Part shown: one piece after another, positions 3 through 13,786 of the stretch
Layout of the letters: each line of letters starts with the position of its first letter
How positions within the stretch are numbered: the first letter of the stretch is position 1
Virus record (IMG/VR): IMGVR_UViG_3300017751_000191
Coordinates: 1 to 25,906 of that record
Length of the DNA: 25,906 bases
Direction: 5' to 3' (one strand)
Source of the DNA: a virus
Translations under genes and position numbers: made by a program
Notes under the pieces: generated by a model
The model's input: only the letters and a program-made list of their open reading frames with translations
Databases searched by the model: none
What the model was told of the DNA's origin: nothing

Positions 3-3000
3 CCTTTGGTAAAGACCGATGCACCTGTGCCGAAAGGAGGAATGACAACTACCAACTCAGCACCAGATCCTGTCAATCCAGCACCAAGAATACCATCAAT
101 CGCCTCAACATCAATTACTGCTGCTAACGCAGAACTTGGCGACTCACTCACGTTTGCCAATGCAGGAACTGGAAGACAATCACTCTTGACAGAATCTTTC
201 GGTGCTTCAGCAACTGCAAACGTCATTACTTCAACTTTCCTTGAAGGTGAGTTGGTTTATCAAGGTGATGCATTTGAGACTGCAACTGCTACTGGTTATG
301 TCTCTACTAATAATGGTTGGCAAGTTGGACCTAGGGTTCTTAAAATTGTTAATTATGTTGGAGATTTCACTGCCAACTCTAAGATTACTGGTGTGATTTC
401 CAAATCCTCTGGTATCATCAGCGATCTTAAGATTGCAAAGGGTGTTCTTGATATTGGTTCTATCACTAAAACCACAGGTCAGTTTATTGATGACGTTGGT
501 AAGCCTTCGGAAATCATTCAGAAGATTCAAGACTCCTACTATTATCAGGACTTCTCATATGCAGTTAAGTCTTCTGTTTCTATTGATGATTGGAAAGATA
601 TTCTAATCAAGAACGTTCATCCCGCTTCGTTCAAAGTCTTTGGTGAATTGAACCTCATTGAAAAGGGTTTTGTTCCAAACAAAGGTATTGATTTCCAATT
701 AACAAAATCTGTCGAACTTACAAGACAATCGGTTGTTCCTAACATTCAAAGTTTTGCTCTGGTAGAACCAATTTATAGTGAGTTTAATAATACTGAGGTT
801 CTTTTCCGTCAGAAGAGACTGACTTCCTCTGAGAATATTTTGACATCTGTTGTTCAACGTATCGATGATATTTCAAGTCTGTTTGATGGCGAACGAATTG
901 CATTCCCATTGACTGTCGATGGAATCAATGTTGTTGCCAACTCGAATCAGTTGATGATTATTCTCAATGGAGTTGCTCAAACTCCTAATACATCATTTGA
1001 GATTCAGGGTGAGTCTATTGTCTTTAGCGAACCTCCACAACCCCCTGCTAGCGTGAAGTATGTAAATATTTCAGTAGATCCAATTTCTATCGTAGCATTT
1101 ACATTCATCAATACTAGTGGTATTTTCCCTAATGTCGGAAATACACTTATCGGCATCTCTTCGACAGCACGTTTGACGGTCACTAATGTTATTGGACAAG
1201 TTATTCAAGGATTTGTTACTGAAGGAACATTTATCATTAATGAACTTTGCACCGTTGGTGCGACAGGATTCTCTGGCAATCTTCAGCAGAATAATAGTAT
1301 TAGTAATATTGGATTGTTTGCTTTTAATGAGACTGTTACTAATTTAGATGGAGATACTGCTAGAGTTGAGCAAATCAACTTACAGAGAGGTCAAGAAACA
1401 CCTTTAGCTAGACTACGTTATACCATTGGTGCAGCAACAACTACTTTTGAGGTTATTGATGCAACTTCTGCTACGGATTCACCCATTGCAGATGGAACTT
1501 TGGTTTCTGGCAGTGATTATCAAATAGGATCCGAAATCTTTACCATTACTAATATCATTCAGGGTTCTGAATCTACTAGTATTACTGTAACTAGAGGAGT
1601 AAATGGTACTAATGCGGTTGCACAACAAGAAGATATTCCCATCTATAGCACTACTATTACCATCACGAATGATCTTACTTTAAGTAAGACTGCTGGTACA
1701 TATCAATCAACACCTGGTCTATATGACATTCAATTGAATGATATTATCATTGGTGCATCTTCTGGTGTTGTTGCTCGTGTCACATCGACGGCAGTGTATG
1801 TAGATCCTACTACTAACGAATCTATTGGACAAGTTAATATTTCTGATGGATCTTCGTTCTTTGGTCTCCTGTTCAACAGAATTGCATCTCAGACATATCC
1901 AAACATCGTTCTTGATGATATTTCTAAATCACAAGTAAGCATTGTTGATTTTGATGATAAAGATACAGCATATGATCTTAAGTTCCCTTCAAATGAACTT
2001 ATTAATAATTATGTGATTCCTTACGATAATGCAAGTGGTGACATCCAACAAGATGAGTTTATTCGTAATTACAAAGTAGAATATGGTAACAATAGTGGTG
2101 AATTTACACCAAATGAAGGTGGTGTAGTAAGGAAACTTACTTTGAAGGATCGCATCGGCACAGGATTCTTTGCTGCAGGTCAAGTTATTAAATCCACTGA
2201 TACTAAAGCAGAGGTTGTTGGTTATAATCAAGCAAAGAGTACTTTGTTCCTTGGTAAAGTTGGTAGATGTCAATCTACTGGTGCTGATTACCATACAGCA
2301 ACATTTAATAATAGTGCTCAATTAGATACAGCACAAAAGCAGTTTGGAACTGCATCATTGCTATTAGCAAGTGGAACTACCGATTATCTTTCCATTCCAA
2401 CTTCAACTGAATTTGGTTTTGGTACAAATGCACTTACAATTGAGTGTTGGATTCGTCCTGCTAATGTTACTGGCGCTAAAGCAATTCTAGATTTTAGAAC
2501 TGCTGGAACTGAAGTTTCTCCTTATCTGTATCTGGATGGTTCAAACATTAAGTATTTGGTCAATGGTTCGGTCACAATCACTGGTACAGCAAGTCTAGTC
2601 GCAGATACCTGGTATCATGTTGCGATTTCTAGATCTGGTTCTACAACTAAGATGTTTGTGAATGGAACACAAGATGGTGGTGATTATAGTGATGCTAGTG
2701 ATTATGGATCTACAAAACCACTTAGAATTGGTGCCACAATAACTTCTAGTGACGGTTTTAGTGGTCATATTGATGAAGTTAGAGTTTCAACTAACAATCG
2801 TTACACACAGACATTCACTGCACCTACAGGAATTTTCCAAGGCGATTCGACCACTAAACTTTTACTTCACTTAGACGGTGCTGATGCTCAGACATATACT
2901 GAGGATTGGTCAGGCGTTGAGTCATTCACTAAGGGTGAAGAGTTTAACAATGATGCAATCTTTGCAACATCTAAAGTTACAGGTGCTCCTGCTGGATTCG

Positions 3001-6000
3001 CTGGCAAAACCCACAGATACTATGATGCAGCAAATCTGATTGAAGTCAATAAAGATTTTGTTGCTAAAGAAACAGTTTATCTACTGACTCAGCAATACCC
3101 ATCACTAGTAATTCCTGGTGGTAACGTCAATTGTGAAGATGATATTCGTGATATTTTGTCTGCTCTGATAGAAGATCTTCGTAATGGTTCTAATAATCAT
3201 ATGTGGGATGCTTCGGCATTATATGTTGATAGAACATCTGTACCCATCACTATCAGTCATGTCGATACTGAGATTACTGAAACCTTATGGGCATATGAAA
3301 AGGTTAATGATATGCTTCAATATATCATTAACAATGTTCTTTGGACTGTCTCGGGATCTCATGGATTGACACAGGTAACTGATACCACACTTACAGATTC
3401 TTCAACTTCATCACTGACAACATTTACCCCTGCTACGGGTACAACATACGACCCCGCAACTGGTTTATTGGTACTGGAGATTGGATCTCATTCACTAACA
3501 ACATCATCAAGAGTTTCTTTAGCAAGAGAATCGATTGTATTTACTTGTACTGATGACGGTAACGATAGAGAAATTTCTTATCCCGATGCTGGTAATACCA
3601 CTGCTTATGATCAAGTTCTTGCAGTAACCTCACCAACAGCAACTACTATTACTGTTAATGTTGGAGCATCTCCTGCTGGTCAGCAATATGCACACACATT
3701 CGTAAGTGCTGCAGCAAATGCAGTCACTGAACTGGATTATACAACAGGAGATTGTGCGGATGTTTATAGTACAGTTGGCAATTTAATTGATATTCTTACT
3801 GATACTCTTACTAATGCCGATCTAGTTTCACCTGTAGATCATTTGGCGTCAGTTACAAAAGTACAACCTGCAATTGAATTTATTGGCGCATCTGTAGATG
3901 AATATCTAGAAACAGGATTCAATGTAGATTATCATGATGGTACATCAGACACAATTTACACAAATCAAATTGGTTTAGATACTCAGTATCGATTCAGAGA
4001 TGCTGCAGGTCTCATTCGTGCAAATCGTGGTCCTATTGTTGATAAGGCAGCTGCCGACATGATTGGGCGATATCCTGAACTTGCTCAAGATATGCCTCGT
4101 AATGCCAATGGTGGTAGTACAGACGGTACGCTTCGCTGTAAGACTGACTTAGGTCTGCTACTCGATGCACTAGCAAATGACCTCGAAGAAGGAGGAAATC
4201 GTAATACTGTAACTGGTGCCAAGTTCTATCTTGGAAATAATGATGTACTACAGCACATCAGATTACAAGTCTTCCAGTCTGTATATGCACATGAGCGACT
4301 GGCATTCTACGCCAAGCAAGCAATTACAGGAGATCTGACAGAAGTTAATACCAACTCAATTATTGTTGGTGATTGGGGTATCACTAATGATGCTGGTAAT
4401 TGTGCTAACGTTCAAACTGCAATTGATACTTTAGTTGAAACTGTCAATGACATCATTGCTCCTACTAATCAGGATTTCCAAATTGCTGCAGATAGACTGT
4501 ATTTCAACAGAACATTTATTGCTGAAGAAATTACTGGATTAACCACAGCAGAATTTACTTATGATCTGAACGGCATTCCATTCAGTGCATTGACGTTCCC
4601 TGGTTCTAACGGTCAAACCACTTGTGAAAGAGATCTTAAACTTATTATTCTTAGCATTATTTCAGATCTCCAAACTGGTGGAAGTTATAGCACAATTACT
4701 GCTATTGAACTCTACTTAAATGCAAATCTCACTATCAATCACATTGAGAATGAACTACTTGCAACTTTATATTCTATTGAGCAACTTAAAATCTTCTGTG
4801 AAAGAGCAGCTAGAAATCTACTATACGATCAGTTTAGTGCTGTAACTGGTGATCAGTATGCAGGCACATATTCTACAACAGCAACGTTTAGGGATTCTGA
4901 AAGTCCTACAGATATTGATGAAGTAGTTTATAGAATTAGAGATCTTGTAGATATTTCTGTTGCAATTCTTGCACCAGGTGAGGATGAAGCAAGAAGTGCT
5001 GCTAAGAATCTTCTGTATAACAAGAACTACTATAAAGAAGAGATTTCTACACTTGCCTTAGCACAATTTGGTACTGGTACTTGGACATATAATGATTTCC
5101 TTGATAATTTAGTTGATGACATTGTTCATGATTTAATTACAACAGATACCACAAGTACTATTAGTGCATATACAATCACATTGAGTGCTAACAGCGGAAA
5201 CTTCATTGTTGGCGAAACAGTCACTTCTAGTGGTGGTGGAACTGCAACTGTTCTTGAGTGGGATGCTGAGGATGAGACTCTATATGTCGGTGCTTTCACT
5301 GGTACTGCATGGGTAGCAGCAGATACTCTGACTGCTCCTTCTACAGCAACTGGTACAATCGCTACTAGTGGAGTAAGTTCTGTCTATGACTGGTATGACA
5401 CTCCTACAAACGTTAAGATTCTTTCTAGAGCACAGAATATTACATCTAATATTACTGGGCAAGTTTCTGGTACTAACTTCTTCACTAATCCTGAGGCATT
5501 TGCAGTCAATTGGCAGGCAAATTCTAATGGTGGTGTTGATTCTCTTCTGATTGCAGATAATAGTATTGCTGCTCCTGATGGCACAGTTACTGCAGAGAAA
5601 TTCTTCGCTCAAAACAGTAATGGTGGCGTTCATGATACGTTCAGAGATTACAGTCTGACTGCATTTGAAACGTTTGACTCAGGTTCAGTTAAGTTTGATA
5701 CTTCTAATGAAACCTTTGACACGGGTGCTGTCGGAATTGATGCTAATCAGACATATACATTCTCAATATTCTTTAAGTCTGCTGGATCCAGTTCCCTCAG
5801 ATATAAGATAACTCTTGATCCTGGACTTGCTTCTGAGCAGAACATCTTCTTCGATCTCAATCTCAATGCTGGAACCACAGGATCTCTGTTTATCCCTCAG
5901 GGTGGTATGACAGGCGATGCATTTGGTGCTGTTCCTTACGGCGCCGGATGGAACAGAGCATACATCATAAAAACCTTCGGATGTGGTTTCTCTACACTCA

Positions 6001-8387
6001 GAGGATCAGTTACTGTCAATTCTGCCACTGGCACAACAAGTTGGACTGGTGATGGAACTACAGGTGCATATTTCTGGGGTGCAAAACTCAATAAAGGTGC
6101 TCTTGATCCATACACTGCAGTCAGTGGTGAAATCTTCTACGCCGATACTGAATACAACATCAAGAATTTTGCAATCGATTTACTAGAATTATTCATGGGC
6201 AATTCCCTTGATAATACTCTGGTATCTCCATCTACTAATGCAGGATTCTATAGTTTCTATGATTCAACCAAAGCATCTGACTACACAAAATCCACAATTC
6301 AGATGTTCATTCGTTATGGTCTGAATACTATCAGACAGCAATTAACTACTGATTCTTACTACACAAACCTAATCCAAGTTAATGGTATTAGTGTTCCTGC
6401 CAAGACATTTGGAACAAGAGATGTTCCTGTCGGTATTGATGGTGGATTGAATAATTCTGATTATATCTACGGACTCCTAAGTGGTAATTATGCAGAACTT
6501 GAAAAGATCAGTGTCAATGAAGGCAAAGTAGTTCAGGTCTATAAGAGATTCCGTATCGATGGTGATATTACCGATGGTCCATTCACTATGAATGAGGTTG
6601 TTGCTAAGCAAGGTGCTCCTAGTGTTACTGGTGTGGTTTATGGATTCTACGAAGATGCAAACTTCAAGTATCTGGATGTTAGAGTCACTGCTGGTCCATG
6701 GGCAGTCACGGACACTCTCGTGGGTGCAACAAACTCCACAACTGCACAAATCAGTGCTATTGAAGACAGACTTCATATCATCGATCTGAAAGGTTCTTTT
6801 GAAGAAGATGTTCCATTCAAAGGATATACTAGTGGTGAAACTGCACAACCAACAGTATTCAATAAAGTTCAAGCTGCTACACTATCAAACACTGGTGGTA
6901 CTCTGACAGTTGATACTGAAACTCTCATTGGAACATTTGAAGAGACTTCTGTTGTTTATCCAGAATCTTCCAGACAGTATCTGGATGTTTCACAATATGC
7001 TGGTCTCGATGTTCAGGTTGGACAGAGGATTGCGTCTGAAGGTTACATTCGTCTCGGAGTTAGTGTTATTAGTGGATTGAATGCATTTACAGTCGGTAAC
7101 AGATTGTATAAGGTCACTAACGGTAATCAAGACAGCAGTGTCTATGGTATTATTAGTGAAGTTGATTTAGATAATAACTACATTTACATAAGTCAAGTTG
7201 TTGGTACATTCAATAACGGTGATCTAGTTGGTGATTATGGGTTATCTGCTAACTTCCCTGTTGGTTATGCATCTATCAGCACTAAAGTCACAACCGTTGG
7301 CGCTGCCGCTGCTCTCGTACAGGATATACGCCTAGTCGGACTCTATAAGAGATTATATCTAAGTGATATTCGTGGAATCTTTAATTCTAAAGATTCTATT
7401 AAGAGTATTGATGGATATAGAGCCGTAGTTGTTGCTAAAGAAGAACTCAAGGCAAGGGTTAAGAGAGCGTTTAGAGGATTTGATGGCACTCAAACCAACT
7501 TTAAACTTACTACTGGTAATGGTACGCAGTATCTTCCTGATCCCGCTGGTCACCTACTTATCTTCATCAATGGCGTCTTGCAACCTCCTGGTGCTACAAA
7601 TGCATTCACCGCATTCTCCGATCAAATTCAATTCACAGAATCGCCCGATTTGGGTGCATCATTCACTGGATTCTATATCGGTAAGTTAAGACAACTTGAT
7701 GATATTTCGTTCGAGTTTGACTCTTTACGTCAATCTTTCAACCTGAAGCGTAATGATGTATTCTACTCACTGACATTAACGGACGGTGTTCAATCGAGTG
7801 TCATCCGACCTGAAAATAATATCATTGTTTCTCTCAATGGTGTTCTGCAAGAACCTGGTGTTGGTTTTGAGATTGTTGGTTCTAGGATTATCTTCTCAGA
7901 AATTCCTCGCTTCGGTTCCACGTTTGTGGCATTCTCATACGTCGGTTCTGAAGCTGACGTTGATGCTGCAGAAGTTGTACCACCAGTAGAACCTGGTGAT
8001 TTCATTGACATTCAGGGTGAGACTTCGGATAGAGAGGTTGCTCTAATTGAGTCTTCAAATTCTCTAATCACATTCGATTATCTCGGATCTGTTTTTGGTC
8101 AAGATGCTCAGGCAAGTGCAAACATCACCGCTGGTTATATTAAGAATGTTCAAATCACCGCTGGTGGTTCTGGATACACATCCAGACCTACTGTAAGACT
8201 CGATTCTATCTCTGGTTTCGATGCTAATATTCGAGCATTAGTTGGTGTTGCTGGTGTTGAACTCAGTACTACTGGGTCTGGATATCAAGATCCTATTGTT
8301 GATGTTGAGACTAGCGTTCCTGATGATTGGACTGCACCAGATCTTTCTCAATACGGGGAAGAAATAATTAACCCAGAGATACTATAA
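3..8387 (+). CDS. Giant modular virion structural protein, gp7 position, 5' partial
   Basis: The frame is open from the left edge to a TAA at 8385-8387, giving nearly 2800 residues (numbered here from the TTG at 6). No upstream stop is seen, so the N-terminus is probably outside the window; an ATG at 42 is a possible but less likely start, because the AAAGGAGG before it ends one base from the ATG. Modules in order: GxTSGA-type beta modules (about 80-160); a beta repeat with an LNGVxQ core (about 290-360); a TRG module (about 470-550); a LamG-like jelly roll (about 765-960); helical repeats (about 1005-1725); a carbohydrate-binding-type jelly roll (about 1824-2045); two more LNGVLQ repeats (about 2490-2650); and a GGSGY module near the C-terminus. 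Its place two genes before gp8 matches T4 gp7, but I see no direct gp7 similarity. The likely role is in the baseplate periphery or in host-surface adhesion. Virion location is well supported; exact function is inferred. Confidence 0.85.
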   Translation, partial: PLVKTDAPVPKGGMTTTNSAPDPVNPAPRIPSIASTSITAANAELGDSLTFANAGTGRQSLLTESFGASATANVITSTFLEGELVYQGDAFETATATGYVSTNNGWQVGPRVLKIVNYVGDFTANSKITGVISKSSGIISDLKIAKGVLDIGSITKTTGQFIDDVGKPSEIIQKIQDSYYYQDFSYAVKSSVSIDDWKDILIKNVHPASFKVFGELNLIEKGFVPNKGIDFQLTKSVELTRQSVVPNIQSFALVEPIYSEFNNTEVLFRQKRLTSSENILTSVVQRIDDISSLFDGERIAFPLTVDGINVVANSNQLMIILNGVAQTPNTSFEIQGESIVFSEPPQPPASVKYVNISVDPISIVAFTFINTSGIFPNVGNTLIGISSTARLTVTNVIGQVIQGFVTEGTFIINELCTVGATGFSGNLQQNNSISNIGLFAFNETVTNLDGDTARVEQINLQRGQETPLARLRYTIGAATTTFEVIDATSATDSPIADGTLVSGSDYQIGSEIFTITNIIQGSESTSITVTRGVNGTNAVAQQEDIPIYSTTITITNDLTLSKTAGTYQSTPGLYDIQLNDIIIGASSGVVARVTSTAVYVDPTTNESIGQVNISDGSSFFGLLFNRIASQTYPNIVLDDISKSQVSIVDFDDKDTAYDLKFPSNELINNYVIPYDNASGDIQQDEFIRNYKVEYGNNSGEFTPNEGGVVRKLTLKDRIGTGFFAAGQVIKSTDTKAEVVGYNQAKSTLFLGKVGRCQSTGADYHTATFNNSAQLDTAQKQFGTASLLLASGTTDYLSIPTSTEFGFGTNALTIECWIRPANVTGAKAILDFRTAGTEVSPYLYLDGSNIKYLVNGSVTITGTASLVADTWYHVAISRSGSTTKMFVNGTQDGGDYSDASDYGSTKPLRIGATITSSDGFSGHIDEVRVSTNNRYTQTFTAPTGIFQGDSTTKLLLHLDGADAQTYTEDWSGVESFTKGEEFNNDAIFATSKVTGAPAGFAGKTHRYYDAANLIEVNKDFVAKETVYLLTQQYPSLVIPGGNVNCEDDIRDILSALIEDLRNGSNNHMWDASALYVDRTSVPITISHVDTEITETLWAYEKVNDMLQYIINNVLWTVSGSHGLTQVTDTTLTDSSTSSLTTFTPATGTTYDPATGLLVLEIGSHSLTTSSRVSLARESIVFTCTDDGNDREISYPDAGNTTAYDQVLAVTSPTATTITVNVGASPAGQQYAHTFVSAAANAVTELDYTTGDCADVYSTVGNLIDILTDTLTNADLVSPVDHLASVTKVQPAIEFIGASVDEYLETGFNVDYHDGTSDTIYTNQIGLDTQYRFRDAAGLIRANRGPIVDKAAADMIGRYPELAQDMPRNANGGSTDGTLRCKTDLGLLLDALANDLEEGGNRNTVTGAKFYLGNNDVLQHIRLQVFQSVYAHERLAFYAKQAITGDLTEVNTNSIIVGDWGITNDAGNCANVQTAIDTLVETVNDIIAPTNQDFQIAADRLYFNRTFIAEEITGLTTAEFTYDLNGIPFSALTFPGSNGQTTCERDLKLIILSIISDLQTGGSYSTITAIELYLNANLTINHIENELLATLYSIEQLKIFCERAARNLLYDQFSAVTGDQYAGTYSTTATFRDSESPTDIDEVVYRIRDLVDISVAILAPGEDEARSAAKNLLYNKNYYKEEISTLALAQFGTGTWTYNDFLDNLVDDIVHDLITTDTTSTISAYTITLSANSGNFIVGETVTSSGGGTATVLEWDAEDETLYVGAFTGTAWVAADTLTAPSTATGTIATSGVSSVYDWYDTPTNVKILSRAQNITSNITGQVSGTNFFTNPEAFAVNWQANSNGGVDSLLIADNSIAAPDGTVTAEKFFAQNSNGGVHDTFRDYSLTAFETFDSGSVKFDTSNETFDTGAVGIDANQTYTFSIFFKSAGSSSLRYKITLDPGLASEQNIFFDLNLNAGTTGSLFIPQGGMTGDAFGAVPYGAGWNRAYIIKTFGCGFSTLRGSVTVNSATGTTSWTGDGTTGAYFWGAKLNKGALDPYTAVSGEIFYADTEYNIKNFAIDLLELFMGNSLDNTLVSPSTNAGFYSFYDSTKASDYTKSTIQMFIRYGLNTIRQQLTTDSYYTNLIQVNGISVPAKTFGTRDVPVGIDGGLNNSDYIYGLLSGNYAELEKISVNEGKVVQVYKRFRIDGDITDGPFTMNEVVAKQGAPSVTGVVYGFYEDANFKYLDVRVTAGPWAVTDTLVGATNSTTAQISAIEDRLHIIDLKGSFEEDVPFKGYTSGETAQPTVFNKVQAATLSNTGGTLTVDTETLIGTFEETSVVYPESSRQYLDVSQYAGLDVQVGQRIASEGYIRLGVSVISGLNAFTVGNRLYKVTNGNQDSSVYGIISEVDLDNNYIYISQVVGTFNNGDLVGDYGLSANFPVGYASISTKVTTVGAAAALVQDIRLVGLYKRLYLSDIRGIFNSKDSIKSIDGYRAVVVAKEELKARVKRAFRGFDGTQTNFKLTTGNGTQYLPDPAGHLLIFINGVLQPPGATNAFTAFSDQIQFTESPDLGASFTGFYIGKLRQLDDISFEFDSLRQSFNLKRNDVFYSLTLTDGVQSSVIRPENNIIVSLNGVLQEPGVGFEIVGSRIIFSEIPRFGSTFVAFSYVGSEADVDAAEVVPPVEPGDFIDIQGETSDREVALIESSNSLITFDYLGSVFGQDAQASANITAGYIKNVQITAGGSGYTSRPTVRLDSISGFDANIRALVGVAGVELSTTGSGYQDPIVDVETSVPDDWTAPDLSQYGEEIINPEIL
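879..1080 (+). repeat. LNGVxQ beta repeat, copy 1 (protein level)
   Basis: This encodes a module starting near FDGERIAFPL, with the core LNGVAQTPNTSFEI and the closing stretch IVFSEPPQPPAS. Two related copies occur close to the C-terminus of the same protein (from about 7479). Copies 1 and 3 share the order LNGV, FEI, IxFSExP, which indicates a repeated beta domain and not chance similarity. The boundaries are approximate. Confidence 0.65.
2297..2890 (+). other. LamG-like jelly-roll domain inside the giant virion protein
   Basis: About 200 residues have the hallmarks of the LamG / concanavalin-like lectin fold: a start with FGTASLLL; the strand TIECWIRPA; the strand ADTWYHVAISRSG followed by MFVNG; then PLRIGA; and the closing HIDEVRVS before a run ending in LLLHLDG. 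This fold often binds sugars or cell-surface polymers, so a host-adhesion role is plausible. Ligand residues cannot be judged from sequence alone. Confidence 0.8.
3020..5180 (+). repeat. Four divergent helical repeats (protein level) in the giant virion protein
   Basis: Four related segments begin near 3020, 3990, 4472 and 4983. Each opens with a helix of the type DAANLIEVNKDFVAKE, AAGLIRANRGPI, AADRLYFNRTFIAEE or AAKNLLYNKNYYKEE. Copies 1-3 then carry a conserved Cys followed by an acidic helix (CEDDIRDILSALIEDL, CKTDLGLLLDALANDL, CERDLKLIILSIISDL). Copy 4 lacks the Cys (FLDNLVDDIVHDL) and is soon interrupted by beta modules. Similar repeats are common in long cyanophage virion proteins. The role is probably a spacer or scaffold. 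The repeats are seen directly; the role is inferred. Confidence 0.72.
5476..6150 (+). other. Carbohydrate-binding-type jelly-roll domain in the giant virion protein
   Basis: The segment starts with NFFTNPEAFAVNWQ and continues through IAAPDGTVTAEKF, QTYTFSIFFKSAG, GWNRAYIIKTF, TGAYFWGAKLNKG and DPYTAVSG. This order of motifs is typical of the jelly-roll modules attached to phage tail fibres and other surface proteins. It sits after helical repeat 4 and looks inserted into it. An internal near-repeat, FETFDSG then NETFDTG, lies in a loop. Sugar binding is inferred from the family. Confidence 0.72.
7479..7945 (+). repeat. LNGVLQ beta repeats, copies 2 and 3 (protein level)
   Basis: Two adjacent copies follow one another: FDGTQTNFKL ... 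IFINGVLQPPG ... IQFTESPDLGASF, then FDSLRQSFNL ... VSLNGVLQEPG ... IIFSEIPRFGSTF. They are joined by LRQLDDISFE, which resembles the RIDDISSLFDG that precedes copy 1 near 866. This tandem beta repeat probably forms stacked surface domains. Confidence 0.7.
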
Positions 8388-8410: not shown

Positions 8411-9637
8411 ATGGCAAAACAAACACTCGGTCTTGGATCCGCCGCCAATGACAACACTGGTGATACCTTAAGGGTCGGTGGAGACAAGATCAATGATAAC
8501 TTTAACGAGTTATATACAGCATTGGGTAATGGGAGTGATCTATCAATCGTTACAACAAACCCTGCTTCTGGGCAAGTTTTACGATACAATGGATCAACCT
8601 TTTTACCCTCTGACTATACGAATCTAACTGCTAGTTTAGACGTTAATGGTTTTTCAATCGTTTCCGCTTCAAACGGAAATATTGCTATTGCTCCTAATGG
8701 AACTGGTAATGTTTCTATTAGTAACGGAAGTATCACCAATACATTTAACGGTTCGACAGGTGTTGTAGATTTTCCTACAACAATTCAATATAAGAATGAA
8801 TATACCGCTTTAAATAATGCTCCTGCATCAGGAACATACCCTGGATACTTTTTCACCGTTGATGGTGATGATAACCCATATGTCAATATGAACATCACTG
8901 CAGGTGGTGCAGGAGATGTTAGAGCGAAAGTTGTGACTGAGTATTCTAGTATCGATCTCCTTGCTGATGTAGATACTACGACTGTAGCACCTACAGCAAA
9001 CCAAATTCTGAAATGGAACGGTACTAATTGGGCACCTGCAGATGATGGTGGAGATGGTGGTGGAACTACTCAAAACTTATTCGAGAGTGTTGCTGCTGAT
9101 ACTGGATCCACAACTGCTAATGCTTCAAATGATACTCTGACGCTCACGGGCGGAACTGACATTACCACCTCTATCACAGGTGATGTTGTTACTATTAACT
9201 ATACAGGTACAGGAATCACAACTCTTGCTGGGTTAAGTGATACTGACTTAACTGGTATCACTCAAGGAAATTCATTATTTTATAATGGGACTGATTGGAT
9301 TGTAGTTGATAGTCCTATTACTTGGTGGGAAATTAATTCTAGCGGAACTAGTGATTATACATTCGCTGGTCCTGGATTTCCAGTCACGGTGAATGATCCC
9401 ACAATCTATGTGCATAGGGGTTTCACTTACGCATTTGACAATTCTGTTCAAGGTGGAGCACACCCATTTAGAATTCAAAGCACACAAGGATTATCGGGTA
9501 CTCCATACACAACTGGTCAATCTGGTAGTGGAACTAGTGTTCTCTATTGGACTGTTCCTATGGACGCCCCTGCAACACTTTATTATCAATGCACTATTCA
9601 TGCTCTCATGAATGGAACTATTAACGTTGTAAATTGA
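8411..9637 (+). CDS. Fibre-like virion protein with C-terminal cupredoxin-like domain
   Basis: A 408-residue protein beginning MAKQTLGLGSAANDNTGDTL. The N-terminal stretch ending KINDNFNELYTALG is common at the start of phage fibre and appendage proteins. The middle holds repeated short beta motifs (QVLRYNGSTF, QILKWNGTNW, SLFYNGTDW). The last hundred residues resemble a cupredoxin: YTFAGPGFPVTV, then GAHPFRIQS, ending LYYQCTIHALMNGTINV. His351, Cys394, His397 and Met400 have the spacing of a type 1 copper site. No strong Shine-Dalgarno sequence precedes the ATG; a late promoter lies just upstream, and the next gene starts three bases after the stop. It is probably a virion appendage near the baseplate. 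The copper ligands are seen; actual copper binding is inferred. Confidence 0.88.
   Translation: MAKQTLGLGSAANDNTGDTLRVGGDKINDNFNELYTALGNGSDLSIVTTNPASGQVLRYNGSTFLPSDYTNLTASLDVNGFSIVSASNGNIAIAPNGTGNVSISNGSITNTFNGSTGVVDFPTTIQYKNEYTALNNAPASGTYPGYFFTVDGDDNPYVNMNITAGGAGDVRAKVVTEYSSIDLLADVDTTTVAPTANQILKWNGTNWAPADDGGDGGGTTQNLFESVAADTGSTTANASNDTLTLTGGTDITTSITGDVVTINYTGTGITTLAGLSDTDLTGITQGNSLFYNGTDWIVVDSPITWWEINSSGTSDYTFAGPGFPVTVNDPTIYVHRGFTYAFDNSVQGGAHPFRIQSTQGLSGTPYTTGQSGSGTSVLYWTVPMDAPATLYYQCTIHALMNGTINVVN
9323..9634 (+). other. Cupredoxin-like domain with intact type 1 Cu ligand set (408-aa protein)
   Basis: Residues about 305-408. The first candidate ligand is His351 in GGAHPFRI. The remaining ligands form the classic C-x2-H-x2-M loop CTIHALM (Cys394, His397, Met400). 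The order His ... Cys ... His ... Met with the last three clustered is the type 1 copper arrangement of plastocyanin-like proteins. Confidence 0.7.
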
Positions 9638-9640
9638 TAA

Positions 9641-12600
9641 ATGGCAAGAACTGTTCCTGGATCTGGCGCTGTCATCGAACCAATCTTCGATGAAATTTTT
9701 GGTGTCCGTGCTGTAAAAGTAATTAAGGGCGGATCTGGATATGATCCATCAGACCCTCCTAGATTGACTGTTGATGGGTGTGGGACTCCAGATGAAGACG
9801 CATTACTATATCCTATAATTGATGCCGATGCAGGAAGAATCACACACGTTCGTGTTCTGGAAAAAGGAAGAGGTTATGATCCACTAAGATTACAAATTAT
9901 TCCCGAACAGGAAACTCCAAATGTAATTAATTCTTTTGATATTAACAGAATTTGGCAGAGACATCCTAATTCTTTAACTTCAGGCATTTTTGATGGTGTT
10001 AATGATCGGTTGAGAATCCAGTCAGATAATCATCCTAAACCAACTTGGACTCAATCAGAATCTGCTCCTGGTGGTGGTCCTCTTGTAGATAGAACGTTCG
10101 ATCAAACTTTCATTTATCGTGGTGGTAAGGATGTCCCAAATCCTGCCGCTAGAGAAGAGCAAAATGATAAGGTTGTAGGTATTTTATCAAATGGTGGTCT
10201 TTTACACACCCCTGAGTGGGGACAAGATGCTGGGGCACCTGTAGGATTTTCTATCGATAGCGTAAAGTATTCGTATATTAAGAATAACGATGTCTATGAT
10301 GCTGTAGTAGAAAATAATATCAAATACTATCAATCTAGTAAGTCGATTGAAGAGTTTAAACTACTGAATGGTGTATTTGAATGGGGTAAGATTAGGCAAT
10401 ATACTTGGAATGTAAAAGTTGAATATGGAAATATACTTCTTTCTGTTACTAATGTTGATGAAACTTTAGGTTCTATTGAAGTTGGTAGGATTGTAGATGA
10501 AGTTGGTGGAAATGCCCGAGGTGAAATCTCAAAAGTTGTCAGAGATGGTAACGGCGATGTCATTAGGATATACTTAAGAGATGTAGTCCCCACTGCAACT
10601 TTTAGTATCACGGATTTATGTTTAGGATCTAACGGATTTACATTTGCTATTTCTGCCGAACCGATTAGTTTAAATGTATATTATATTGATTTCGGTCAAG
10701 ATGCACTTCGTTTTGGTCCGTTTGTTCCTGGTCAATATTATTTTGCTCCAGAAAATATTACTGTCAGAGCAAATGATTTAATTACATTCAATCAAGTCGA
10801 TTCTTCTAATCAAGAAGGAATAGGACATCCTATCAGATTTAGTACGACCCAAGATGGTCCTCTGAATTTGGGAACTTTGTACTATAACAGTACAGGTGCA
10901 GATGCTGCACCTTCTGCAGATTACGAGAACGAGTTCCAACCACTATTCATTATGAATGGTAGTGAGACAAATAGAATCTACTATCATTGTGCATATCACC
11001 GTTATATGTCAGGGTATGCTGGTGATGAAGGTTATATAACCTTAGATTCAACTAGTGATACAACTCCTCTTCAAAATAATTATTATATTCTGGATTATTA
11101 TCAGTCGGATGCAAATGATGCATCCACTATTGATTATTCCAGACATGTGGATGGACATTCCAAAGTTATTGGTATGTCTTTTGATGGATATCCAATCTAT
11201 GGACCTTATGGATATAACAGTGGTGGTTCTGCAGTAAGAATGACAAGTTCTTATCGTTTAAAAACTACTACCGAATTAGCAGGTGCCAGACCAGAAGTAA
11301 TTACAGCAAGTACTGTTACATATGCAGTAACAGTATCAAATAATGAATATCTATTTGATGGATCTCGTCCATCTTTCTTAAATTTAAAACGAGGTAAGAC
11401 TTACATCTTTAATTGTGATGACGCTAGTGTAGATTCTGACACATTCCTTATCTCAGAAACTGAAGATTCTTGGCATTCTACAGGAGATAATTCCAATATT
11501 GGAGATGTCAGTTATGTTTATGGTCTCGGTGTAACCTATGTAATTGATGGTAGTAGCGTTACTTATAGTCAGTACCTATCTCAATTTGCTTCGGCAACAA
11601 CACGAGAATTGAGAATAGAACTTCGTGCAGATGCACCAAGAATTTTGTATTCTTTCTCATACGCACTTTCCAATAGAGGTGTTAGAAGTGTTCAAGATGG
11701 ATATATTTTAGGCGATCTTGTACAAGATTTCATTTATGATTCTTCAGTTGGAACTCTGGATGAATTTAATGGAAAGTTTGCAGTAACTCCAGAATACCCA
11801 AATGGTACATATGGATATTTCATGACAGAGGATTCTAATGGAGATCCTGTCTATCCTTATGCTATTGGTCCTAAGTTTTACAGTGCTCCTTTATTTGAGA
11901 ATGATGTTGTTCCTGATCTTGTATCTCAGTTTCCAACTGGTGCAGAGGGCAAGGTTGTTCTAGATGAGAATGGTCAGGTTTCTTATGTGAAGATGACCAG
12001 ACAGGGGGATGGATTTTTTGGATCTGCAAAAGCAAAAATTCTTGGTGGAGAAGGAACTGGTGCCACAGGAAGTGCTATTGTTCAGACAATTACTGGTCTT
12101 TCCCTTCTTAATAATGGTAGAGATTATGCGACTCCTCCCACACTAATTTTTGAAGGTGGTGGTGGCGGACAAGGTGCCCAAGGTGCTGCAGAGATTGATG
12201 TTGCTGGTAAAATTGCTAGTATTAATATTGTCAATCCTGGAGAGTTTTATCAAGAACCTCCATATATTCTTATTACTGGTGGCGGTGGTCTTGGTGCTAA
12301 AGCAGTAGCAGATATTAATCAAGGTGAAATTACAGGGATTACTGTTACTGAATCTGGGAAGGGTTATACATCCCAACCCAATATCATCTTCACAAAATTA
12401 GTTAATTTAAAGAGAAAATCTCGTGCTCGCCAAGCATTTAATTCATACCAAATTTATCTCACTGGTCTTATAGCAGATGTTACTGCATCAGATTCGGAAA
12501 TTTATGTAAGTTCCACAGATGCATATCCTGGATCAGGATCATTTATTGTCAATAATGAAACTGTTTCATATACATCTAAATCTAGAAGTAAATTCTCTGG

Positions 12601-13786
12601 TCTAACTAGAGGTGTTAATTTCAATTATGATCAACGTGTAATTCTTGATGATACTCAAAATGATTCGCAAGGGGTATCAACTTATGATTTTAATGTTGGC
12701 GACAGAGTAATTCGTAGAATTGAAAATGCTAACAATAAGATTGCAAAAGTTTATGACTGGAATCCAAATACAAGAGAACTTCTCGTTACATTTGAGGTTG
12801 ATGAATTAGCATTTATTGACGGTGGCATTCCTTCTACTGAAGATGCTATTGTTCAATTTGATGCTGGAGTTTCAAATAGTACTACTAGTGCATTCCAACC
12901 TCATGTTATCGAAACTGTTACGGGAAGCACCATTTCATTACTGACAAATCCTATCTCCACTTTAGTAGATAGAGCATTCCAAGATGATGATGAACAAGAT
13001 GGTGCTGGCGATGGTATCCCAGATCTTGTAAATACAGGAACTGATTATGAAAGTCAAATCAATCTTGATGGTGGTATTTACGACTCTCTTTATGGCATTG
13101 AGGAAACTCAAGGTGGTCAAAACACTACATTATTCCAAGTTGGTGACAATGTTAAAGATGCTTCTATCCCATTCAAGTACGCCACAGTTTCTTCTGCTGG
13201 TGGATTGAGTGAAGGTGTAGAGCATATTTCTATCGCCAATATATACTTAGAAAGTGGTAATGGTCAAAACTATAGTGTGAATGAAGTTGTAACTGGTGAT
13301 ATTTCTGGGGTACAGGGGACGGTTGTTTCTTGGAACTCTGTAACTGGTTTGTTACAAGTCAAAGATATTGTCAGATTTAATACTACTAATATCAATGTTG
13401 GTATTAGCGGGTACTTGTATGAGTTCTCTGAAAAGGGAACTATCGTTGATTTCTTTGTTCAGGATGCGGGTACAAACTATACAGGAACACCAACAGTGGC
13501 AATTGAAAATATTGGAGACATTGCCGCAACAGCAACTGTTAATATGACAAGTGCTGGTGACCAGGTTGAGTCTTTAACTATAACTAATGGTGGTTATGGA
13601 ATTGAGCAAACTGTCGATGGAACTTACAACACTCATCCGACAGTCACATTTACCAATGCTGGTGGAGATAGTACTGGATCGGGTGCAGTTGCATACGCAA
13701 TTCTTGGCGGAGAAAAGGTTAATGGAAACGCTGGCGCATCATATAGAATAAAGAGAATTGAATACTCAACTATCGTTCGTTCGTAA
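9641..13786 (+). CDS. Virion protein with cupredoxin-like and split YHYH domains
   Basis: A 1381-residue protein starting three bases after the previous stop, with no clear Shine-Dalgarno sequence. Order of parts: a GGSGY-type module (about 20-90); a region I do not recognise (about 90-340); a cupredoxin-like domain (about 345-470) with His396, Cys450, His453 and Met456; the first half of a YHYH-family domain (about 484-541, including [20 protein letters not shown]); a second cupredoxin-like domain without ligands (about 553-682); the second half of the YHYH domain (about 690-750, [30 protein letters not shown]); glycine-rich GGSGY-type repeats (about 770-920); a TRG module (about 935-1000); a GxTSGA-type module; and further GGSGY-type repeats to the end. 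It is probably a large baseplate-peripheral or fibre protein. The domain calls rest on motifs. Confidence 0.87.
10673..11050 (+). other. Cupredoxin-like domain with intact type 1 Cu ligand set (1381-aa protein)
   Basis: Residues about 345-470: [15 protein letters not shown], then [11 protein letters not shown], then [16 protein letters not shown]. His396, Cys450, His453 and Met456 form a C-x2-H-x2-M cluster with an upstream His, as in the neighbouring 408-residue protein. The segment between the first His and the Cys is 53 residues here and 42 there, so the two are related domains and not recent copies. Confidence 0.7.
11090..11263 (+). other. YHYH-family domain, first half
   Basis: Residues about 484-541 include [20 protein letters not shown] and end in SSYRLK. 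The GHS...[13 protein letters not shown] core is diagnostic of the YHYH family. The matching second half lies downstream at about 11708-11890, beyond an inserted domain. Confidence 0.75.
11297..11686 (+). other. Ligand-less cupredoxin-like domain inserted in the YHYH domain
   Basis: Residues about 553-682. The framework matches the domain at 10673-11050: [16 protein letters not shown] (where HPIRFS would be) and [13 protein letters not shown] (where the Cys-x2-His-x2-Met loop would be). The ligand positions align with Asp600, Ser673, Leu676 and Arg679, so a type 1 copper site is not possible here. Confidence 0.6.
11708..11890 (+). other. YHYH-family domain, second half
   Basis: Residues about 690-750 carry [20 protein letters not shown], then GYFMTED and [10 protein letters not shown], the usual C-terminal portion of YHYH-family domains. 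The signature YHYH string itself is replaced by YGYF, so the family's namesake histidines are absent. Confidence 0.7.

Follow-up and report, generated by a model that had tools for sequence, protein, structure and literature searches.

A baseplate protein identified from its sequence matches as gp9 of a T4-like marine cyanophage ends in a domain with the cupredoxin fold and a complete set of putative type 1 copper ligands, and copies of this domain recur in other virion proteins of cyanophages. The DNA analysed (the window) is positions 1 to 25,906 of IMG/VR virus record IMGVR_UViG_3300017751_000191. The cupredoxin fold and its copper site are already known; that they serve virions as a common module in which a copper-type site is maintained is, as far as we have found, undescribed, and a literature search, which had most subscription journals outside it, returned no report of virion proteins of phages with a cupredoxin domain. 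The gene and the domain lie in the window as follows.

8411..9637, + strand: gp9-like protein linking the baseplate wedge to the tail fibre, 408 aa (PHROG, Pfam and PDB matches)
9320..9634, + strand: cupredoxin-like domain, gp9 residues 304-408 (AlphaFold2, Foldseek and profile matches)

The product of ORF 8411-9637 matches phrog_677 (E 2.7e-197), Pfam T4_gp9_10_N covers its residues 3-71 and T4 gp9 and gp10 in the PDB match its N-terminus (phmmer E 1e-4, residues 3-63). The protein is identical to gp9 of Synechococcus phages ACG-2014a and S-MbCM100, and it is followed by a gp10-like baseplate gene and then gp8, the products of both being identical to those of ACG-2014a. The two hallmarks of a T4-like gp9, the gp9/gp10 N-terminal domain and a position among baseplate genes, are therefore both present, and the matches identify the protein as the one that joins the tail fibre to the wedge of the cyanophage baseplate. 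The original prediction had seen a fibre-like protein, with the copper domain at its tip and folding stability, redox activity or host contact as possible uses. That label gives way to the connector on the PHROG and Pfam evidence, and the location at a fibre tip finds no support, given the role of gp9 and the frequent N-terminal position of the domain in fibres. The homology found to T4 gp9 is confined to the N-terminal region; for residues 304-408, no T4 gp9 match was found by phmmer against PDB sequences or by Foldseek against the PDB. Positions 3-8387 of the window are a piece of a very long virion gene, which measures 18 kb in S-MbCM100 and is annotated there as a YadA domain protein.

Computation shows residues 304-408 of gp9 to be a true cupredoxin-fold domain. 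An AlphaFold2 model of residues 302-408, built from 74 aligned copies, is a nine-strand beta-sandwich of high confidence (pLDDT 97.3, pTM 0.89), in keeping with the Greek-key sandwich of about eight strands that defines the fold. The top Foldseek matches in the PDB are the nitrite reductase NirK, rusticyanin, amicyanin, a pseudoazurin with an amicyanin loop, cytochrome oxidase (CcO) subunit II and laccases; the 50 matches listed are of the cupredoxin kind except for a titin domain in last place. TM-scores to the PDB cupredoxins are moderate, about 0.5, which makes the domain a remote relative of them. Searched against PDB sequences, a profile built from 34 copies finds NirK (3.9e-7), amicyanin (1.5e-5), plastocyanin (1.9e-5) and also rusticyanin, and its alignment places the His, Cys, His and Met on the ligands of amicyanin. 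Pfam Copper-bind is matched at E<=0.01 by 29 of 74 domain copies, a P-SSM2 spike with one domain copy scores above the curated cut-off of that family, and NCBIfam rusticyanin and amicyanin models match some copies. The gp9 sequence alone reaches no Pfam cupredoxin family, a weak match to a plant At5g54830-like family falling below the cut-off, so it is through the family profile that gp9 is assigned to the cupredoxins.

Four residues of the domain form the putative copper site.

9461..9463, + strand: His351, putative copper ligand (the N-terminal His)
9590..9592, + strand: Cys394, putative copper ligand and the sole Cys of gp9
9599..9601, + strand: His397, putative copper ligand
9608..9610, + strand: Met400, putative axial copper ligand

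The original prediction had named these residues as a type 1 copper ligand set. All four are present in the translation of 8411-9637, with the last three as C-x2-H-x2-M (C-T-I-H-A-L-M), and the reading of their order and spacing as such a set within a cupredoxin fold was borne out by AlphaFold2, Foldseek, the family profile and Copper-bind. His, Cys, His and Met follow in the order of a type 1 site, with a short C-terminal loop of the amicyanin type. The fold match and the ligand alignment together imply that the four would converge in space. Besides its sole Cys, gp9 has only three His (335, 351 and 397). Composition shuffles of the eight window proteins give an expectation of 0.0045 for C-x2-H-x2-M and of 0.0015 when an upstream His is added. 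The motif is found twice in the window proteins, in gp9 and in the product of the next gene. The PROSITE-style copper_blue pattern, in the form used here, matches neither protein. That signature calls for Pro or Gly just ahead of the second His, a place taken by Ile in gp9 and by Tyr in the gp10-like protein; the signature is a motif convention and no property of the copper site. The HxH pairs of type 2 and type 3 copper are absent from both proteins, so neither is a multicopper oxidase.

Amicyanin of Paracoccus (PDB 1aac, 2gb2) is among the nearest known systems, sharing with the gp9 domain the fold, the aligned His, Cys, His and Met and the C-x2-H-x2-M spacing. It is, however, a soluble electron carrier, whereas the gp9 domain forms the C-terminal part of a baseplate protein, and the sequence similarity is weak. 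Plastocyanin has the same fold and ligand types, but its ligand loop is longer, C-x2-H-x4-M. Cyanophages also carry plastocyanin, encoded by petE (PMC3037559), as a separate soluble metabolic gene, in contrast to a domain that is part of a structural protein. Putative metal sites in phage tail proteins have a further parallel in the iron-binding HxH tail fibres of T4 gp37 and Alteromonas phage R22Y (PMC11705849). There, paired histidines of the fibre trimer hold an octahedral Fe, while in gp9 the His, Cys, His and Met lie within one domain.

Retention and loss of the four residues go together. In the first IMG/VR scan all were present in 82/82 gp9 copies. Among 87 non-redundant copies (<70% identity), four, three, two, one and no ligands are kept in 67, 2, 0, 7 and 11, respectively, against 36.9, 35.3, 12.6, 2.0 and 0.1 expected under independent loss. 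The intact copies have a mean pairwise identity of 32%, and C-x2-H-x2-M is present in 66 of the 67. Joint retention across such divergent copies, with loss only en bloc, makes the site more than a motif, and free loss of the four residues among homologues, which the original prediction had set as its own refutation, is not seen. Where the ligands are gone, the core residues G337, F342 and Y391 persist and the site neighbours P352 and Y392 vanish with the ligands. Twelve of the 18 copies with one ligand or none come from the gp9-scan loci, where they correspond to segment three of the gp10-like protein; most are thus one paralogous lineage, and independent loss events are fewer than the counts suggest. 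Others are in unrelated proteins, among them the S-B05 tail fibre (L090), L283 and L245. One alignment (A2) has invariant ligand columns because its rows were chosen that way, and it is the other counts that are the evidence for conservation. From this pattern the type 1 copper-like site appears to be under selective maintenance. In L283 (frame from 644), intact and ligand-less copies adjoin in one protein, a natural test of what the site contributes.

The gene after gp9 holds two more cupredoxin-like segments.

9641..13786, + strand: 1381-aa gp10-like subunit of the baseplate wedge (phrog_708), in which a YHYH domain is split and two additional segments are cupredoxin-like
10748..11014, + strand: second cupredoxin-like domain, with intact His396, Cys450, His453 and Met456 (E 1.3e-19)
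11363..11662, + strand: third cupredoxin-like segment, which lacks the ligands (residues 575-674; E 1.4e-5 and 1.1e-4)
11654..11839, + strand: part of the YHYH domain that scores best in Pfam, with residues 672-733 aligned to profile positions 127-185

The second domain keeps its His, Cys, His and Met in 74 of 77 gp10-like copies. This second intact site was overlooked by the original prediction, which was right about the site in gp9 and mistaken about its protein context. The ligand-less third segment, with a pLDDT of about 90 over most residues, appears to be inserted within the YHYH domain. Iyer et al. predicted that YHYH domains are tail-associated metal-dependent hydrolases (PMC7824862). 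In the YHYH region of the window (10658-11920; 16 protein letters not shown), YGYF stands where the YHYH motif is expected, and relatives have YAYF. Foldseek lists laccases for the gp10-like protein, but a laccase-like multidomain enzyme was rejected, as HxH pairs are absent and the whole-protein model is poor (pLDDT 67.9, pTM 0.39, rmsd about 26 A).

By sequence, the gp9 domain is matched in 346 phage records, and 336 of these bear the name of Synechococcus, Prochlorococcus or cyanophages. Copies are found, among other proteins, in fibres of S-SCSM1, Sf-CH8 and the podovirus P-GSP1, twice in the P-SSM2 spike and in a subtilase protein of S-H9-1. Where the protein is complete and lies outside the first scan, an intact copy stands at the N-terminal side in 70 cases, internally in 57 and at the C-terminal side in 56 (redundant counts), a mixture that argues against a purely host-facing tip. 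By this distribution of sequences, the domain is a widespread, mobile virion module attached to cyanophage baseplate, fibre, spike and tail-protease proteins. A scan of bacterial genomes with the gp9 domain as query identified no cellular source; its one match, 76% identical, is in a Rhodopirellula metagenome-assembled genome (contig NZVD01000020.1; L290), possibly a phage contig binned with it. Two further IMG/VR loci, L219 (863-3937) and L242, each have four consecutive cupredoxin-like matches with the ligands nearly all intact.

Taken jointly, these observations are on balance probably best explained by a mobile module of cupredoxin fold with a maintained copper-like site and a copper-stabilized role in docking. 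The putative site would take up a copper ion, either inside the host or once the virion is free in sea water, and the copper would lock the ligand loop to give a rigid, stable beta-sandwich. The sandwich would then serve protein-protein docking or surface interaction around the baseplate-fibre junction, not the carriage of electrons. The site very likely binds a metal, copper is the most likely one and a rigid docking or stabilizing module is the most likely role. Docking is suggested by the connector role of gp9 and by the many fibre-like proteins that have the domain on their N-terminal side; it is read entirely from the position of the domain. Virions are assembled in a reducing, copper-poor cytoplasm, and this counts against copper; zinc at the site, or an empty site, is possible. 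T4 has 18 copies each of gp9 and gp10, and if these numbers hold in the cyanophage, there may be up to 36 intact sites per particle. A bolder and doubtful extension would make marine cyanophage particles copper proteins, with tens of type 1 sites in their baseplates and fibres acting in the baseplate switch or in adsorption. Loading would take place in sea water or inside the host, and the sites would act by redox chemistry or by metal-controlled locking.

The alternatives differ in what, if anything, the site holds and in what the metal does. A metal other than copper, likely zinc, might be held for stability, as often happens in recombinant cupredoxins. Assembly in the cytoplasm would suit this, and Zn(II) is generally known to suit His2Cys sites; zinc would not obviously need the axial Met and the amicyanin-type loop of 66/67 intact non-redundant copies, however, and we regard it as unlikely. 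A redox role for copper bound in the domain, with electrons transferred or oxidants or reductants sensed at the host surface and the baseplate perhaps triggered in this way, seems distinctly improbable. The ligand set and loop are indeed those of electron-transfer cupredoxins, all four ligands are kept, the axial Met included, and the neighbouring protein combines a second intact site with a YHYH domain, a predicted metal-dependent hydrolase (PMC7824862). However, the window encodes no evident redox partner, the lack of type 2/3 histidine pairs excludes a multicopper oxidase and the virion is without a known electron source. It is very unlikely that the four residues are retained merely as part of the fold, with no metal, as the ligand-less copies preserve the fold core, so that the fold does not require these residues, which elsewhere are kept jointly and at fixed spacing. 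Least probable of all is that copper on the tail acts as bait for the copper uptake of the host or as a scavenging device, like that proposed for iron-carrying tail fibres, for although the number of intact sites per particle could be high and iron-binding HxH motifs have been proposed in marine phage fibres (PMC11705849), the domain sits in the connector and often on the N-terminal side of fibre-like proteins.

The copper-site reading leads to a clear and measurable prediction: copper should be present in the virions of a group that is dominant among ocean viruses. If true, this would connect phage structure with the chemistry of trace metals. The assignment also gives a fold and a name to a recurrent domain of baseplate, fibre and spike proteins, many of which bear no label beyond hypothetical or structural, and adds the cupredoxin fold to the building blocks of virions. 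Beta-sandwich proteins of Pithovirus LCPAC302 and LCPAC304 and of Marseillevirus LCMAC201 also match the gp9 domain in structure, with E-values down to 5e-7.
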